37,245 bases of DNA from Candidatus Magasanikiibacteriota bacterium (lineage in GTDB: Bacteria > Patescibacteriota > Patescibacteriia > Magasanikbacterales > GWA2-37-8), in assembly GCA_016189025.1 (NCBI GenBank), contig JACPGS010000030.1, positions 1 to 37,245 on the forward strand, written 5' to 3'. Shown in pieces: positions 3,248 through 11,325 of this stretch. The notes under the pieces are model-generated. The model searched no databases. It was not told the DNA's origin and worked only from the letters and a program-made list of their open reading frames with translations. Numbering within the stretch: position 1 is the stretch's first letter; the number at the start of each line of letters is the position of its first letter. The position numbers and the translations under genes are program-made.

Positions 3248-4801
3248 TTATTTAATGGGAAGCATTCTTTTGAGTACCGACGCAAAGGAGCCGTTGGTAG
3301 TAGTGGCGACAAAGCGCAGACCAAGGTTGCGGGCCAGCAATCGGTCGCTGTACCGGTCGCCGCAGACCAAAGAATAACCTCGGTCGATGGCTGATTGTCG
3401 CTGCCTTAAAAATTGTTGCAGCAGTCCGGTTTGTGGTTTGCGACAGGAGCAGCGTTTCTTTGGCAGGTGGGGGCAAACAAAGATGCGAGTAAAGCCGATA
3501 CCTTCTTGGTTCAGCTGGGCAAGTAATTTTTTTTGTACTGCCGTAAAATTTTTCCGCGGGAATATCTTAGTTCCTAAACCATCCTGGTTAGTAATCATTA
3601 TCAGCCGGTAGCCAGCAGCGGATAATTTTTTTAGGCCAGTAATGACACTCGGCAAAATTTGTAGCTGTCGGGAGGAGTCGACCTGCCGGGTATCGGGTGG
3701 TTCAAAGATTAACGTACCGTCGCGATCCAGGAAAGCATATTTTTGGAGGTTAGTCGCGCGATAGGTACGAATAAATTGTTTCATTTGCGACTGCGTGCCA
3801 ATGGTAACGCGTAACCAGACGCCTAGTTTAGGATAATTTAACAGGCGGACTAGGCAGCCGGCCGCTTTGAGCAACCGCCAGGCCATGGCGGCGTTGGGTG
3901 GGCGGAATAACAAAAAATTTCCCCCGGACGGTAAATAAGGAATTTGTTGTTTGGTAAAAAATTGTTCCACTAGCGGTTTAGCGTACCGCATCACTGCGGC
4001 GACATATTTTTTCGTGGCCGGCAGATTGTTGAGCGCGGCGCGGGCTGCTACTACCGCCGCCATATTTACATCATAAGGGCCGCGCACTTTAGTAAATTCA
4101 GTGATATAGCGTGGTGCGGCGATCAAGTAACCCAGCCGCAGCGCCGCCAGACCAAAGGCTTTAGAAAAAGTGCGGGAGACGATAATATTGGGATATTTTT
4201 GAATCAGCGGCACCGCCGTAATACCGCAAAATTCAAAATAGGCCTCATCCACATAGATGATGGCGCGCGGGGCGGCGCGTGCGAGCCGAACAATATCTTT
4301 CGTCTGGATTGCCGTGCCGGTAGGATTATTGGGGTTGCAAACAACAATTAAGCGAGTGCGCCGGGTAAGGCGTCTTAATATTTCTGCCAGCGGAAAGGCG
4401 CCGTCAGTATAGTAGCGGGGCGCCATCACTCGGTTGCCGTTTAACCGGGCAAATTGCTCAAACAAACGGTAGGTAGGCACAGGGATAATCACTTCATCAC
4501 CCGGTTGAGTGAAAGTGCGGAAAACCAAGTCTATCCCCTGCTCTGATCCGTTGGTAAGCAGGATATTTTTCACCGGCACTTTAGCATAACGGGCGATGGA
4601 AATGGTCAGGTTTCCATATTCCGGGTAGCACTGCCACTGGTTATCGGCCACTGATTTCTGTAACGCCCGTTTAATCTTTGGGACAGGCGGAATGGTGCGT
4701 TCGTTGAAATCTAAAAGCAGGCCGGCATAAGAGCGGCGATTATTAAGGGGCGGTGCGTAAGGCCGCATTTTTTGGATGTGGGAGAGGGCTAAATTAGTCA
4801 T
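3248..4801 (-). CDS. Fusion of histidinol-phosphate aminotransferase (HisC) and HAD histidinol-phosphatase (HisB N-terminal type)
   Basis: N-terminal PLP aminotransferase (NPNNPTGT, SRTFSKAFGLAALRLGY); C-terminal FLDRDGTLIFEPPDTRQVD...ITNQDGLGT...CPHLPKKRCSCRKP as in the HisB phosphatase domain. Confidence 0.93.
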   Translation of the reverse strand: MTNLALSHIQKMRPYAPPLNNRRSYAGLLLDFNERTIPPVPKIKRALQKSVADNQWQCYPEYGNLTISIARYAKVPVKNILLTNGSEQGIDLVFRTFTQPGDEVIIPVPTYRLFEQFARLNGNRVMAPRYYTDGAFPLAEILRRLTRRTRLIVVCNPNNPTGTAIQTKDIVRLARAAPRAIIYVDEAYFEFCGITAVPLIQKYPNIIVSRTFSKAFGLAALRLGYLIAAPRYITEFTKVRGPYDVNMAAVVAARAALNNLPATKKYVAAVMRYAKPLVEQFFTKQQIPYLPSGGNFLLFRPPNAAMAWRLLKAAGCLVRLLNYPKLGVWLRVTIGTQSQMKQFIRTYRATNLQKYAFLDRDGTLIFEPPDTRQVDSSRQLQILPSVITGLKKLSAAGYRLIMITNQDGLGTKIFPRKNFTAVQKKLLAQLNQEGIGFTRIFVCPHLPKKRCSCRKPQTGLLQQFLRQRQSAIDRGYSLVCGDRYSDRLLARNLGLRFVATTTNGSFASVLKRMLPIK

Positions 4802-6090
4802 AATCCGGACAATCTTATTTGAATGGCGCGTTGGTGGCCCGCGAGCTCTTCGGCGGCAGTGAGCGGCTCAATAATTTTATTTAAGGCGCGCAAACCGGGC
4901 CGGGTAATTTCTTGGCAGGTAATGAATTTTAAGAAATTTTCCAACGACACGCCGCCCCAGGCCTTGGCTGCCCCGGCTGTCGGCAGGGTGTGATTGGCGC
5001 CGCTAGCGTAGTCGCCGGCGGTTACGGGAGAAAAAACGCCCAGAAAAACCGCACCAGCATTTTTGACTAAAGCGCGCCAGCGCCGGGGATTTTTTATATT
5101 CAGCGCCAGGTGTTCCGGAGCATAGAAGTTAGCAAAAGCAATGGCCTTTTCCACATTGGACGTAATTAGAACGAAGCTTTGCTTGAGTGCTGCTGCGGCA
5201 ATTTGGCGGCGGGGGAGGATGGCCAGTTGTCGGTTTAACTCAACCATGACTTTTTTAACTTTTTGTTTATCCGGGCATACCAAAATTGCCCGGGCATCCG
5301 CGCTGTGTTCGGCTTGCGCCAGGAGGTCAGCCGCCACCCAGGCGGCATTGGCTTTGCCGTCGGCAATTACCAATACTTCACTGGGGCCAGCCGGTAAATC
5401 TATTGCCGCGCCTGTTGGATCCGCTGCCACCAAAAGTTTGGCCATCGTAACATAGCGGTTACCCGGGCCGAAAATTTTATCTACTTTGGGGATAGTTTGC
5501 GTACCATAAGCTAGCGCCGCAATTGCCTGCGCTCCGCCTACCGCGAATATTTGGTTAATGCCGCAGCAGCGAGCAGCATAGAGAATGGCGGAAGGAACCC
5601 CGCCATTCTTTTGGGGCGGAGTACAGAGGATAATCTGGCGACAGCCGGCCAGCCGGGCCGGAATACCGAGCATCAGTACGGTGGAAACGAGCGGGGCGGA
5701 GCCGCCGGGGATATAAATACCAACCCGTTCAATTGGTCGCGCTTCGCGTCGGCAGACCACACCGGGAGCCGTAGCAACAGTTATCGTGTCCGGTCGCTGC
5801 GCGCGGTGGAAAGTTCTGATATTATTGGCGGCTAGGCGGATTGCCTGTTTTAGAGCCGGAGGAACAGCACGCATCGCCTGGCGGATTTCTTCAGGGGGAA
5901 CCGCGAAGCTTGAACGTTGGACACCATCAAACTGTAGACTAAAACGACGCACGGCCCGGTCGCCTTCGCGTTTGACCGCCGCAATAATGCGCCGCGCTGT
6001 CCGTTGCGTCGCCTGATCATCAACAGTTGATCGGGCACAAAGCGCCTGTAATTTTTGTTCAGTTAGTTGCGATTGATAATATAGCCTCAT
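4798..6090 (-). CDS. hisD: Histidinol dehydrogenase
   Basis: GIYIPGGSAPLVSTVLMLGIPARLAG; AAIDLPAGPSEVLVIAD; 4-nt overlap with the downstream hisC-hisB fusion. Confidence 0.96.
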   Translation of the reverse strand: MRLYYQSQLTEQKLQALCARSTVDDQATQRTARRIIAAVKREGDRAVRRFSLQFDGVQRSSFAVPPEEIRQAMRAVPPALKQAIRLAANNIRTFHRAQRPDTITVATAPGVVCRREARPIERVGIYIPGGSAPLVSTVLMLGIPARLAGCRQIILCTPPQKNGGVPSAILYAARCCGINQIFAVGGAQAIAALAYGTQTIPKVDKIFGPGNRYVTMAKLLVAADPTGAAIDLPAGPSEVLVIADGKANAAWVAADLLAQAEHSADARAILVCPDKQKVKKVMVELNRQLAILPRRQIAAAALKQSFVLITSNVEKAIAFANFYAPEHLALNIKNPRRWRALVKNAGAVFLGVFSPVTAGDYASGANHTLPTAGAAKAWGGVSLENFLKFITCQEITRPGLRALNKIIEPLTAAEELAGHQRAIQIRLSGL

Positions 6091-6191: not shown

Positions 6192-6458
6192 CTACCACCC
6201 CACACTATTCCCTCTCCAGAGCATCCGGTAACACGCCACGCCACCCCCTTCGCACGGCTCGGCAGTTAGTTGTCCGCCGCGCTCGAGCCCGGCAATAAAT
6301 TCATCAAATTCTTTAGGGGCGATGAGGGCATCGGCGATTACGATTTCGCTGCCATCCGGTCGGCGTAGTATCACCCGGCCTCCTGATTGATACTGCAGCC
6401 GGTCGCCGCCGCCAAGGGAGATGCGGGAGAGTTTGAGCAGCTCGGCCAACAGGTTCAT
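6192..6458 (-). CDS. Small hypothetical protein (88 aa)
   Basis: ATG preceded by GGAGGAG; strong hairpin 6486-6519 just upstream. Confidence 0.55.
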   Translation of the reverse strand: MNLLAELLKLSRISLGGGDRLQYQSGGRVILRRPDGSEIVIADALIAPKEFDEFIAGLERGGQLTAEPCEGGGVACYRMLWRGNSVGW

Positions 6459-6519: not shown

Positions 6520-6712
6520 TAGCGGCGGCGTTCGTTGTGGGAGGGGTATGACGCCTTTCACTTACTCATCGGCCGGACACACAATCCGGCCGATTTTCGG
6601 TGCCCGCAGCTCCCGCATCCATATCTGCCGGCCGGCTAACAGAGCCGCCCACGGTGGCGGTTATTAGCTAGAACGGGGATGGGGGAGCCCGAACGGCTGA
6701 CCTAGTCAGCGC

Positions 6713-6785
6713 GGTACTTGCTGGTTTTGCACCAGCAACACTCGCTTCACGTGCGAGGGTGATAATCTGCTTTCACTAAAGTACC
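6713..6785 (-). tRNA. tRNA-like cloverleaf, anticodon GTG (His), with degenerate loops; possible divergent tRNA-His, pseudo-tRNA or tRNA mimic
   Basis: Perfect stems GGTACTT/AAGTACC, GTGA/TCAC, CTCGC/GCGAG, GCTGG/CCAGC with arm sizes 7, 4-10-4, 5-7-5, 5-7-5; T8 A9 and G-1 present; C33, no D-loop GG, T-loop TGCAAAA, no CCA. Confidence 0.5.
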
Positions 6786-6787
6786 CT

Positions 6788-6818
6788 AAAAAACAAAAAA
6801 TCGCCTGGGAGAGCGATT
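6788..6818 (-). terminator. Intrinsic terminator directly upstream of the tRNA-like element
   Basis: Minus strand AATCGC-TCTCCCAG-GCGATT followed by TTTTGTTTTTT. Confidence 0.75.
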
Positions 6819-6854: not shown

Positions 6855-6905
6855 TTACCCCAGGCCGGGCTGATGATGCGTAGTAGAGAGTAAGCTGGAT
6901 GGCAT
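6855..6905 (-). CDS. Putative 16-aa leader peptide MPSSLLSTTHHQPGLG
   Basis: Short ORF with CAT CAT codons between a predicted promoter and the terminator; no clear SD. Confidence 0.25.
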   Translation of the reverse strand: MPSSLLSTTHHQPGLG

Positions 6906-6924
6906 AGTGTTTTAATGTGTTAAT

Positions 6925-6953
6925 ACATTAATACAAAGGCATAAAATTGTCAA
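6925..6953 (-). promoter_or_regulatory. Predicted sigma70-like promoter
   Basis: TTGACA, 17 nt, TAATGT on the minus strand. Confidence 0.4.
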
Positions 6954-7900: not shown

Positions 7901-7962
7901 TTTTATTATTGATTTCTGGCGCCGGATGGGTTAGAGTAAGGGAGATTAAGTGTTATCGTTAT

Positions 7963-10900
7963 ATGCGTTCCAGAGCGGAAAATACCTTTGAACCAAGGCG
8001 CGCTCCAGAATTTTTGCTTGATAGAGAGGCGGATGCCGGTGAGATTGATAGAGAATCTGGCAAAGAAGCAGGCAAGAAAGAGCTGGTGGGGGCGGCGATG
8101 GTTAGAAGCTTGGGTCAAGAACTGCAGAATAAAACCGCCAGCCATTACGGCCCGGTTGGCTTGCAGGTATTTCGCGATGTAATGCAGGGCAAAAAGAGTT
8201 GGGACGACTTTGCCGCCACAGTTGAAACTCTGCCTGATTTTAGAGAATTTCAAAACCGCGCCTGGGAATACTTGCGTGATTTAGGCATTGTGGAGCATCA
8301 AAAAGGCCATACCATTGTTGATTTGGAAGAGTTGCAAAATTTAACCCCGGGCTATGTTTCGTTCGATACGCAGCATTTCGGAGAGATAGCCAAAAGAATC
8401 ACAGGCAAACGCCAAGCTGGCGAGCGGGTGGCAGCGGTTAGCCGCGCTCAATTTAAAAATGCCGCCGCGAGGCTTATCCCCTTTAAGATATACTTTGATA
8501 ACAACTTGAGCCATTTTTTGCAGAACGCGTTCCACGGCAAAAGCGTTATCAGCCGCGACGACTGGCAAGCGCGCCCGCGCGGCAAAAGAAGCGCCGCACC
8601 AAAACCAAAGCCGTTATTTTATTCCCCGGCTAACGCCAGCGAAGCTTTTTCAGCGGAAAAAATAAAGCAGGCGGATTTTTATTTGGGAGCCTGGGAGGTT
8701 GCCGGAGGAGCCGGGGCGTCCTACACGCAATTCCAGCCGGAACTTCCGCATGACGAAACCTCATTAGCCTGTCTCATCTATCATCCGCGTTATGGCAACG
8801 GAGAGCGCAACAACGCCGGGAATCTGGTGGTTACCTATAAAAATGGGTCAAGCAGGCAAATGACCAATGAGTGGTTGAATAATTGCGGCTATTATAAAGG
8901 CAATACCAAGCTGTTGCAGAAGGGCGAATTTTTTGCCAGTGCCGCCACAGCATTGCAGGACGGCAAGATGCCCCAGCTGACAGAGCATGGTTTATTGAGG
9001 CCAGAAGATTTTCACATTTCTGCCACTGTTGAATCAAGCCGCAAGTTTGGCATCAAGCGTCCGCTGACACAATCAGCAGGTATGGTAGTGCTTAATGAAA
9101 GGATACGATATACGCTCGGGCGTGAATATGGCGGCAAGCGCACGCCGGATTGGAAAGTTCGCTACCATGCCTGTCAGATTTCTAATGACCTTGGCGGCAT
9201 TACCGAAGCTGATGATGAGGGGAAAGAAAAATTAGTCGCAATTTTTGATCTCGTTCACGCGGGCGATCCGCGCCTTAAACCGGTAAAGGCAGGGCAGGCG
9301 ACGTACTTTACCATTTCAAAAGACGCAATTAATGTGCGGCCGTACAACGAACAGACGGAAGAGGTCTTTACTATAAAGCAAAGTGATGAAACAGCCGAAG
9401 AACATCAGGTGCGGGCGGAAGCGGTGAATTTTAGCACGCTTATGGAGGTAAAAAAAGAGTTTGCTAAAGAGGCTCATATATCACTTGATGAGTTAGATGG
9501 ACAAGAACAGGCGGCTCTAATAGAATTTTTTCGCTCTAGCAGTTCTGCAGAACGAAAAAAATTGTACCGATTCGCCGAAGTCTATAAACACGAAGGTTTA
9601 CGAACTTTCTTAGCATTTCAATTCGATAAGCGGGCAGGCGACGCGATTTTGTCTTTGCAAGAACAATTGCGTCCTAAACAAATGGAAGAATTGATCAGTG
9701 TATTTAATAAAACAGCCGCGGCTGCCCGCAGCCAAAGCAAAGAAGCGTTGGCGTTACTAAGCCACGATCAAACAGTGCTTAACGCCGAGGCCGAACGTAT
9801 TCTGACTGAAGGTTTGCTGTTTCGCGCCAAAGATATTCTTATTACCGCGCTTAAACAACTTCCTAAAGCTAAAGACAAAGAGAAAACAATAACTCGCCTG
9901 TTGGAAAAACTTGCGGAGGAATCAGCGCTTGAGCAATCTGTTGCCGGACTGTTTACTCGGTTAGTTGATTTATTTAAGCAAAAGCAGGAAGGCGCTATTG
10001 ATATTACCCGCTATGTGCAGCAGCAGGAAGCAGTACTGAAGGCAGTAAAAGAACAGCAAATGGCAGGATTGTTAAATCGAACGCTTCAAGCGCAAGGCGA
10101 ACTCGCGCCGATTCCAGAAATACATTGGCGCGTTGATCGCAGCCTCGCTGAATACCGCGAGCGACTTGGTTTTGATGTTACAAAGCTTTTAAAACATCTG
10201 GCAGAATCGGATCAGCGAAAAGTGTTACTAGAATTCGGGCCGGGAAGCGGCCGTAGCAAACAGGAGCGTTCCCAGCAGGAGATTGATACGTATTACCAGG
10301 ACATTGCCTTGACCGACAGAGTGTATTATCCGCTGGCAGATGTTATTGAGCGGATTGTTGACTGGGCGCGCCTTGAACAGAGCGCCGGAAAGTTAACGGA
10401 CGAGGAGAAAAAGTTGATGGCCGATATGCTGTATAAGTTGGTGCTCATTAAAGACGGGCAAATCGGCGCCAAGAAGTTTGAGTACGCAACTGGCCGGCAA
10501 GAGCGAATCACGGCTGATCCAACAGAACTGCCTGCGGTGCTTGAGGAAATTGCGCCGCAGGTTGATAAGGCGGACTCGATTCCGGATATCATCAGTAGCC
10601 GCGATGAAAATGGACAGGTGTACTATCCCGGCGCCATTGATGTCAGCACAACGGAAAAAAATTCCAAAAATTTTCTTGCGGCCAAAAAATTATTGGGCCG
10701 CCGCATGCAATCATATATCCGCCAGGATGTAGATTTGTATGATGCCATACCAGCTTACCCGCCCGGCGTCATCATCGGAGATTTTGGGGAAATTTCAAAA
10801 CTAAAGAACGGCTCAATTGACGTGGCAATGGGGGTGCGCTCAACCGTGTATAAACGCGATCGAGCCTACATTGCTTTTCTGCAAAACTTAAGCGACAAAT

Positions 10901-11325
10901 TAAAAACCGGCGGCATCTACCTGGATGATAACGTTCGGGATAACGACGGGTGGCGTTCACGCATAGCCGAAGTAGTTCAGTTGCGTGACCAGCTCCAGCG
11001 CCGCGCTGGAGATCGTGCGCTTGATATTGAAATACAATTAATTCTTGGGCCGGGTTTCCGCGGCGAAGACGCCGCAAAAGGAGAGGTGCCACGGACTTTA
11101 GTGATGAGCAAAAAGACTAGCTATGCCAAAACCATTTCTCGTTTACTCGACAAAGGTTTTCGTCTCGTATCGCTAGACGACTATCTTATAGAGTTGAAGG
11201 CCGCGCCTCCCGATCGTTTACACGAACTTGATCCAACTAATCAGCTTTTAAAAACTGTCGCGCCGGAAGTGCGCGGAGGGACATCCGCTGGCAAGCCAGC
11301 GGCCGCTTCGCGCCGGACGGCGTGA
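7963..11325 (+). CDS. Large multidomain protein with a C-terminal class I SAM-methyltransferase-like domain
   Basis: KVLLEFGPGSGRS (motif I-like); NGSIDVAMGVRSTVYKRDRAYIAFLQNLSDKLKTGGIYLDDNVRD; uninterrupted ORF of more than 1100 aa. ATG 7963 is preferred over 7909. Confidence 0.65.
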   Translation: MRSRAENTFEPRRAPEFLLDREADAGEIDRESGKEAGKKELVGAAMVRSLGQELQNKTASHYGPVGLQVFRDVMQGKKSWDDFAATVETLPDFREFQNRAWEYLRDLGIVEHQKGHTIVDLEELQNLTPGYVSFDTQHFGEIAKRITGKRQAGERVAAVSRAQFKNAAARLIPFKIYFDNNLSHFLQNAFHGKSVISRDDWQARPRGKRSAAPKPKPLFYSPANASEAFSAEKIKQADFYLGAWEVAGGAGASYTQFQPELPHDETSLACLIYHPRYGNGERNNAGNLVVTYKNGSSRQMTNEWLNNCGYYKGNTKLLQKGEFFASAATALQDGKMPQLTEHGLLRPEDFHISATVESSRKFGIKRPLTQSAGMVVLNERIRYTLGREYGGKRTPDWKVRYHACQISNDLGGITEADDEGKEKLVAIFDLVHAGDPRLKPVKAGQATYFTISKDAINVRPYNEQTEEVFTIKQSDETAEEHQVRAEAVNFSTLMEVKKEFAKEAHISLDELDGQEQAALIEFFRSSSSAERKKLYRFAEVYKHEGLRTFLAFQFDKRAGDAILSLQEQLRPKQMEELISVFNKTAAAARSQSKEALALLSHDQTVLNAEAERILTEGLLFRAKDILITALKQLPKAKDKEKTITRLLEKLAEESALEQSVAGLFTRLVDLFKQKQEGAIDITRYVQQQEAVLKAVKEQQMAGLLNRTLQAQGELAPIPEIHWRVDRSLAEYRERLGFDVTKLLKHLAESDQRKVLLEFGPGSGRSKQERSQQEIDTYYQDIALTDRVYYPLADVIERIVDWARLEQSAGKLTDEEKKLMADMLYKLVLIKDGQIGAKKFEYATGRQERITADPTELPAVLEEIAPQVDKADSIPDIISSRDENGQVYYPGAIDVSTTEKNSKNFLAAKKLLGRRMQSYIRQDVDLYDAIPAYPPGVIIGDFGEISKLKNGSIDVAMGVRSTVYKRDRAYIAFLQNLSDKLKTGGIYLDDNVRDNDGWRSRIAEVVQLRDQLQRRAGDRALDIEIQLILGPGFRGEDAAKGEVPRTLVMSKKTSYAKTISRLLDKGFRLVSLDDYLIELKAAPPDRLHELDPTNQLLKTVAPEVRGGTSAGKPAAASRRTA

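Follow-up and report, generated by a model that had tools for sequence, protein, structure and literature searches.

Gene control by tRNA mimicry in bacteria rests largely on the thrS operator of E. coli. In the his attenuators of Proteobacteria and Firmicutes, a hairpin and an intrinsic terminator stand between the his genes and a short leader peptide in which His codons occur in tandem, and T-boxes bind tRNA through the stem I specifier and the T-box bulge. The thrS operator mimics the anticodon arms of tRNA and has no acceptor arm (PMC9976931), and the mRNA of yeast HisRS carries a GUG anticodon-like element that imitates tRNA-His in HisRS autoregulation (PMC6542539). For bacterial HisRS itself, the recognition elements are G-1, C73 and the anticodon G34 U35 G36 (PMC9976931). 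In other phyla, HisR/YerC proteins of the TrpR family act as histidine repressors; their motifs are 20-bp palindromes, among them TGTAnTArnnnnyTnTTACA in Proteobacteria (PMC9413887).

The locus described here lies in a window of 37,245 nucleotides, i.e., the whole stretch of DNA that was analysed (Table 1). In common with thrS, it has a tRNA-like leader domain that carries the cognate anticodon and precedes the start codon of a gene related to that amino acid; the cognate triplet stands in an anticodon-like loop (GTG in seven of nine copies), and all arms covary. In contrast to thrS, the element is a complete cloverleaf, in which acceptor, D and T arms are all present, it concerns histidine, it is located behind a His-codon leader and a terminator, and it mostly precedes biosynthetic or other genes and not a synthetase gene. 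The yeast HisRS mRNA is likewise His-specific and has a GUG loop mimicking tRNA-His within an mRNA; however, it is eukaryotic, the anticodon-like element stands alone within the HisRS mRNA, and there is no attenuator. The tandem-His leader peptide and the intrinsic terminator of the his attenuators are both present here, but with only two or three His codons, no predicted competing antiterminator, no Rfam match, and a tRNA-like domain after the terminator. A histidine T-box is also a leader RNA concerned with tRNA-His, whereas here the leader itself is folded as tRNA; the T-box models gave no Rfam match in the region of the element. The HisR (YerC, TrpR family) regulons have in common with the locus a TrpR-family gene upstream (in relatives) and a 20-bp promoter palindrome, whereas Patescibacteria and the combination of an attenuator with a tRNA mimic are not mentioned in the relevant passages of that source (PMC9413887). 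Among open-licence papers, no bacterial tRNA-His mimic was found, nor anything relevant on a tRNA mimic or attenuator in the his genes of Patescibacteria.

The element is probably, although by no means certainly, a tRNA-His mimic that acts in cis within a his leader and whose binding by HisRS or one of its paralogues controls translation. The binding is inferred, while the order of the parts, the conserved fold, the retained GTG, the coexisting tRNA-His and the his context in four genomes are observations. If true, this would be the bacterial His counterpart of the thrS operator and a second case of a tRNA mimic, with a whole cloverleaf, in which near-tRNA forms in relatives would show the evolution of an operator from a tRNA gene. 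It would also reveal a mechanism of regulation in the little-studied Patescibacteria and serve as a warning that tRNA gene finders will label such mimics as tRNA genes.

Table 1. Features of the leader and of the genes downstream, with positions in the window.
Feature	Position	Strand	Remarks
-35 hexamer TTGACA	6948–6953	-	-10-like TAATGT at 6925–6930, 17-nt spacer
Palindromic operator TGTATTAATGTATTAACACA over the -10, HisR/TrpR kind	6916–6935		kept in relatives
Leader peptide ORF, MPSSLLSTTHHQPGLG followed by a stop codon	6855–6905	-	tandem His codons at 6873–6878
Attenuator-like hairpin GGCCTGGGGTA...TACCCTTAGGCC over the leader stop codon	6822–6866	-	prediction, compensatory changes
Intrinsic terminator AATCGC..GCGATTTTTTGTTTTTT	6788–6818	-	pattern scan; kept in all homologues
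tRNA-His-like domain	6713–6785	-	ARAGORN, fold, homologues, covariation
Acceptor of tRNA-like domain	6785–6779/6719–6713	-	7 bp
D arm of tRNA-like domain	6776–6759	-	4 bp, 10-nt loop
Anticodon-like arm	6757–6741	-	5 bp, 7-nt loop ACGTGAA, GTG at 6750–6748
Variable loop of tRNA-like domain			4 nt
T arm of tRNA-like domain	6736–6720	-	5 bp, 7-nt loop TGCAAAA
Conserved leader segment, GCTGA/TCAGC hairpin, AACCGCCACCGTGGGCGGCTCTG	6633–6712	-	common to the window and G009 only
88-codon ORF between leader and hisD	6192–6458	-	no Pfam or NCBIfam match
hisD, histidinol dehydrogenase	4798–6090	-	PF00815 527 bits, TIGR00069
hisC fused to HisB-type histidinol-phosphatase	3248–4801	-	TIGR01141, TIGR01261 above cut-off

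The cloverleaf had been proposed in a sequence-only reading of this DNA, and its sequence and all of its stems match positions 6785–6713 of the minus strand exactly. The coordinates proposed for the element remain unchanged; the functional unit is larger than was supposed and begins at the promoter near 6953. The His anticodon GTG was confirmed by ARAGORN, which called tRNA-His(gtg) at 6711–6785, but the Rfam tRNA covariance model (RF00005) returned nothing there even at E ≤ 10, so that the suggested check by tRNA finders was positive with one program and negative with the other. Elsewhere in this 1.22-Mb genome, 51 tRNAs passed the threshold of the latter model. All departures from tRNA-His that had been claimed are present, namely C33 (not U33), a D loop without GG, G55, G73 (not C73) and the lack of CCA; furthermore, the T loop is TGCAAAA and not of the TTC type. 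Thus, the element is tRNA-shaped, yet it deviates from tRNA at positions important for translation. The predicted fold of the cloverleaf has an energy of -27 kcal/mol (z = -3.6), and none of 200 shuffles was as stable. ARAGORN called 0 tRNAs in 2.23 Mb of random first-order sequence with the dinucleotide make-up of the window, and a chance cloverleaf is therefore unlikely. Of the known RNA families, Rfam revealed two tRNA-Ser genes and nothing else; the tmRNA of the genome sits elsewhere, on contig C14.

Eight homologues of the element were found in Parcubacteria-type genomes, seven of them from the same order as the genome of the window (G000; the other G numbers denote relatives) and one from another order of the class. 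When 57 relatives were searched at the nucleotide level, three genuine homologues emerged: G009, from the same family as G000, with 76% identity to the window over 159 bp (tRNA-like domain and the following leader segment), and G042 and G027, from other families of the order, whose alignment, at about 70%, spans both the terminator upstream and the cloverleaf. Sequence alone thereby connected four of the nine copies, prior to any structural model. Model R1, built from two sequences, found only G009 in the family. The covariance model R2 (terminator tail and cloverleaf), with which 86 genomes of the order were searched, added G061 (Ca. Parcubacteria SI034_bin149), G055 (Ca. Parcubacteria BM521), G071 and G066, and model R3 (leader, terminator and cloverleaf; 383 genomes of the class) added G228 (Candidatus Buchananbacteria bin-902, another order) with 76.5 bits, the remaining new matches scoring no more than 62 bits. 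A search of the order around G228 gave no additional member. It should be noted that the R2 matches L115, L116 and L118–L121 were ordinary tRNAs where inspected and were excluded from the count, as were most R3 matches (204 genomes, mostly about 45–62 bits).

An absence of conservation and covariation in relatives would have refuted the sequence-only reading; this check was passed in all four arms. Standard pairs occupied 95.8% of cells in eight cloverleaves, and both sides had changed in 12 of the 21 pairs. The covariation score was 0.544 compared with 0.187 ± 0.032 in shuffles, of which none in 500 was as high, and it did not exceed 0.123 when the partner was slid. Half of the sequences came from a structural model, which is a bias towards structure; however, compensatory changes were already visible in the four copies found by sequence (acceptor pair 3 is T-A, T-G or C-G, and T-arm pair 3 is T-A, C-G or A-T), and the anticodon-like arm had been left unpaired in R1 and R2. 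The cloverleaf at 6713–6785 is real and conserved and is not a functional-looking tRNA.

All nine copies are preceded by the same cassette, in the order promoter/palindrome, leader peptide, hairpin and intrinsic terminator. The pattern TTGACA (TTTACA in one case)-N17-TAnnnT occurs at the same place in G009, G042, G027, G061, G055, G071 and G228, as well as in two further relatives, G012 and G019; in G066, TTGACA was recognised at this place by eye, outside the pattern scan. The palindrome, which is perfect in G055 (TGTATTAATGTATTAATACA), resembles the proteobacterial HisR motif (PMC9413887). A TrpR-family gene (PF01371, Pfam) is located directly before the promoter in G009, G042 and G027, and a hisR-like ORF was read by eye at this position in G061, G055, G066 and G228. 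Another ORF separates the TrpR-family gene from the promoter in G071, and no TrpR-family gene adjoins the element in the window. In ten leaders, the ORF has 14–17 codons and encodes HH or HHH at a constant position (G042 MNYIFLNNLHHTKGLG, G061 MKQITTYNSTHHTQDLE and G228 MYLNSITNNNHHHK, each ending at a stop codon). An attenuator-like hairpin is predicted in all ten, with its base about 12–15 nt past the start of the His codons and its 5' arm overlapping or adjoining the leader stop codon. The terminator has the form AATCGC..GCGATTTTTT across copies, and the gap between it and the cloverleaf ranges from a few to about 30 nt, except for G009, where it is about 145 nt because of an insertion. This insertion (L055 1357–1496, plus strand, about 140 bp) has CTCCCTCTCCCTAGGGAGAGGG-type inverted repeats and the appearance of a small mobile or repeat element. 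In G012, the leader and terminator of the cassette stand directly before hisG-hisD without any cloverleaf, and in G019 the promoter and terminator are followed by a different insert and then by a HisRS-family gene and hisG. Thus, the leader itself serves as a histidine device, to which the cloverleaf has been added as a separable part.

The sequence-only reading had placed hisD and hisC-hisB downstream on the same strand, with which the profile matches agree, an 88-codon ORF intervening. His genes follow the domain in four of the nine genomes: the window, G061 and G066 (hisG, then hisD-like reading frames) and G228, the only one in which hisS is directly downstream (TIGR00442 above cut-off, then a hisG-like frame). 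The genes downstream are non-his in G009, G042, G027, G055 and G071. A radical SAM gene lies downstream of the cassette, after a small ORF or directly, in G042, G009 and G071, confirmed with Pfam only in G042 and identified by eye from the cysteine motif in the other two; in G027, the ORF downstream is unknown. A strict tie to histidine biosynthesis was rejected, as hisD was found in only G000, G012 and G019 of the 57-relative set (G061 and G066 lie outside it) and is absent from G009, G027, G042 and G055. The non-his targets and the carriers without hisD imply that the cassette moved or that its target genes were replaced. At L103 8476–9964 (G009), L104 12702–14151 (G042) and L112 from 1631 on, reverse strand (G071), the cassette stands before putative radical SAM genes, separated from them in G009 and G042 by a small ORF of an unknown family; this arrangement resembles a peptide-modification pair. 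An alanine-racemase-like gene was recognised by eye after the mimic cassette of G055 (L114, plus strand, from 1557 on / L165). In G055, G061, G066 and G071, the start codon follows the end of the domain at a distance of 16–39 nt; in the window, 254 nt separate the domain from the 88-codon ORF and about 620 nt from hisD.

The triplet GTG occupies positions 34–36 in G000, G042, G055, G061, G066, G071 and G228, while the bases flanking it in the loop and stem vary among these seven: the loop is TAGTGAA in G042, ATGTGAA in G055 and G061, TCGTGA in G071, CTGTGAA in G228 and TCGTGGC in G066. GTG is absent from G009 (GCG, loop about GAGCGAA) and G027 (ATA, loop CAATAGA). The best-kept parts of the domain are the acceptor and T arms, as would be expected of an RNA-processing or stability signal in which RNase P, perhaps with RNase Z, would recognise these two arms and sever the leader from the coding mRNA, generating a new, stable end; the triplet would then be incidental. 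Such a signal would also account for the presence of the domain before non-his genes and for the non-GTG loops of G009 and G027. This explanation is nevertheless unlikely, since GTG at exactly 34–36 in seven of nine copies, the conservation of the D and anticodon-like arms and the His-codon leader remain unexplained by it. The loop consensus GNGAA may be read in a GNRA-like manner as well, and this reading fits G009 but not G066 (G027 fits neither). A structured leader module with an unknown ligand, which converged on or descended from a cloverleaf and uses the loop as a GNRA-like docking motif, could be supposed on these grounds; it is quite unlikely, given that the four arm lengths are canonical, the position of the triplet is that in tRNA, the leader peptide contains His codons, and G066 and G228 tie the domain directly to tRNA-His.

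The domains of G228 and G066 are close to true tRNA-His and are called by ARAGORN, and the Rfam tRNA model gives that of G228 a score of 60.9 bits. These two copies alone retain C73; G-1 occurs in three (the window, G071 and G228), so that only G228 combines both. The acceptor stem of G228 forms a lengthened helix of about 22 bp, in which a CCA end would not be free. The loss of G-1:C73 in most lineages indicates that the domain is probably bound and not charged, and the pattern of identity elements fits an RNA held, uncharged, by the anticodon-binding part of a protein, although there are no binding data. The two near-tRNA copies are what speaks for a working or recently working tRNA-His gene in the his operon, diverged in most lineages but still serving in translation, and a very divergent working tRNA had been the other possibility named in the sequence-only reading. 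It is very unlikely and was further disfavoured by the search for a normal tRNA-His elsewhere, which was successful: an ordinary tRNA-His with the loop TTGTGGC adjoins tRNA-Arg on contig C15 of the window's genome, which thus has no need of the element as tRNA-His. A canonical tRNA-His distinct from the element exists in all nine carrier genomes, with loops reading TTGTGG (U33, G37). It was found by pattern and ARAGORN in G000, G009, G042, G055, G061 and G071, on contig C38 in G228 and on contig C17 in G027; in G066, the pattern match looks truncated, and ARAGORN gives a complete tRNA-His about 500 bp off at the same locus. Moreover, C73, the D-loop GG and the TTC T loop are missing from the seven copies other than G066 and G228, and the tRNA model does not detect the window copy. 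The idea of a decaying tRNA-His pseudogene or a chance fold, to which the departures of the window copy from the tRNA consensus might point, can hardly be maintained, since it is contradicted by covariation in all arms, across families and in a second order, and by the absence of chance calls in random sequence.

Complementary sequences flanking the canonical tRNA-His genes of G055 and G061 lengthen the acceptor helix, e.g., TCAAAATAGGGGTGGCTA / TAGCCACCCCTATTTTGA (L171 near 1488–1561 and L172 near 1487–1561, both on the minus strand). Such an extended helix is also seen in the leader copy of G228 (L138 cloverleaf) and is possibly a lineage trait of tRNA-His precursors.

The mimic or decoy in a his leader, as originally suggested, is supported by the covariation, the separate tRNA-His, the His-codon leader and the his genes in four of nine genomes; its limits are the non-his genes in five relatives, the non-GTG loops in two of these, and the fact that HisRS binding and an effect on expression are inferred only. 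An element kept by evolution despite a normal tRNA-His in every carrier is probably a decoy or switch sensed by an enzyme that handles tRNA-His. In the mechanism proposed, HisR would repress initiation when histidine is plentiful; transcription from the HisR-type promoter would proceed through the His-codon ORF, the hairpin and the terminator, with the leader adjusting termination, and the tRNA-like domain would be present only in read-through transcripts. When uncharged tRNA-His is scarce, HisRS or a paralogue such as HisZ would bind the domain via the GUG loop and impede the access of ribosomes to the gene that follows immediately, in the manner of ThrRS on thrS mRNA, until accumulating uncharged tRNA-His displaced the protein by competition and expression rose. 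With the site 16–39 nt before the start codon (G055, G061, G066, G071), a bound protein could block ribosomes; the distances of 254 and about 620 nt in the window are far for direct blocking and count against the mimic, and control there would need the intervening structured segment common to G009. Also counting against the mimic are the absence of hisD from four carriers, the rarity of C73, the GNRA-like reading of the loop, and the occurrence of the his leader or terminator without the domain in G012 and G019. Attenuation is the weakest step of this mechanism. No antiterminator competing with the terminator was predicted in the ten leaders, and the pairing probability of the terminator was 0.89–0.99 at every modelled ribosome position; a ribosome stalled at the His codons would, in the model, extend no further than the base of the upstream hairpin, whereas one at the stop codon would melt this hairpin. 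The chances appear about even that three devices, i.e., a HisR operator, a His-codon attenuator and a HisRS-read full-cloverleaf mimic apparently derived from tRNA-His via intermediates such as G066 and G228, are stacked in this Parcubacteria lineage.

The highly conserved segment at 6633–6712 corresponds in G009 to L055 1578–1660 (plus strand) and also includes CCGTTCGGG, with a possible 9-bp alternative pairing AGCCGTTCG/TGGGCGGCT; the segment could represent a further regulatory domain. A 1138-codon ORF without a Pfam match, which diverges from the his cluster, occupies positions 7909–11325 of the plus strand of the window.
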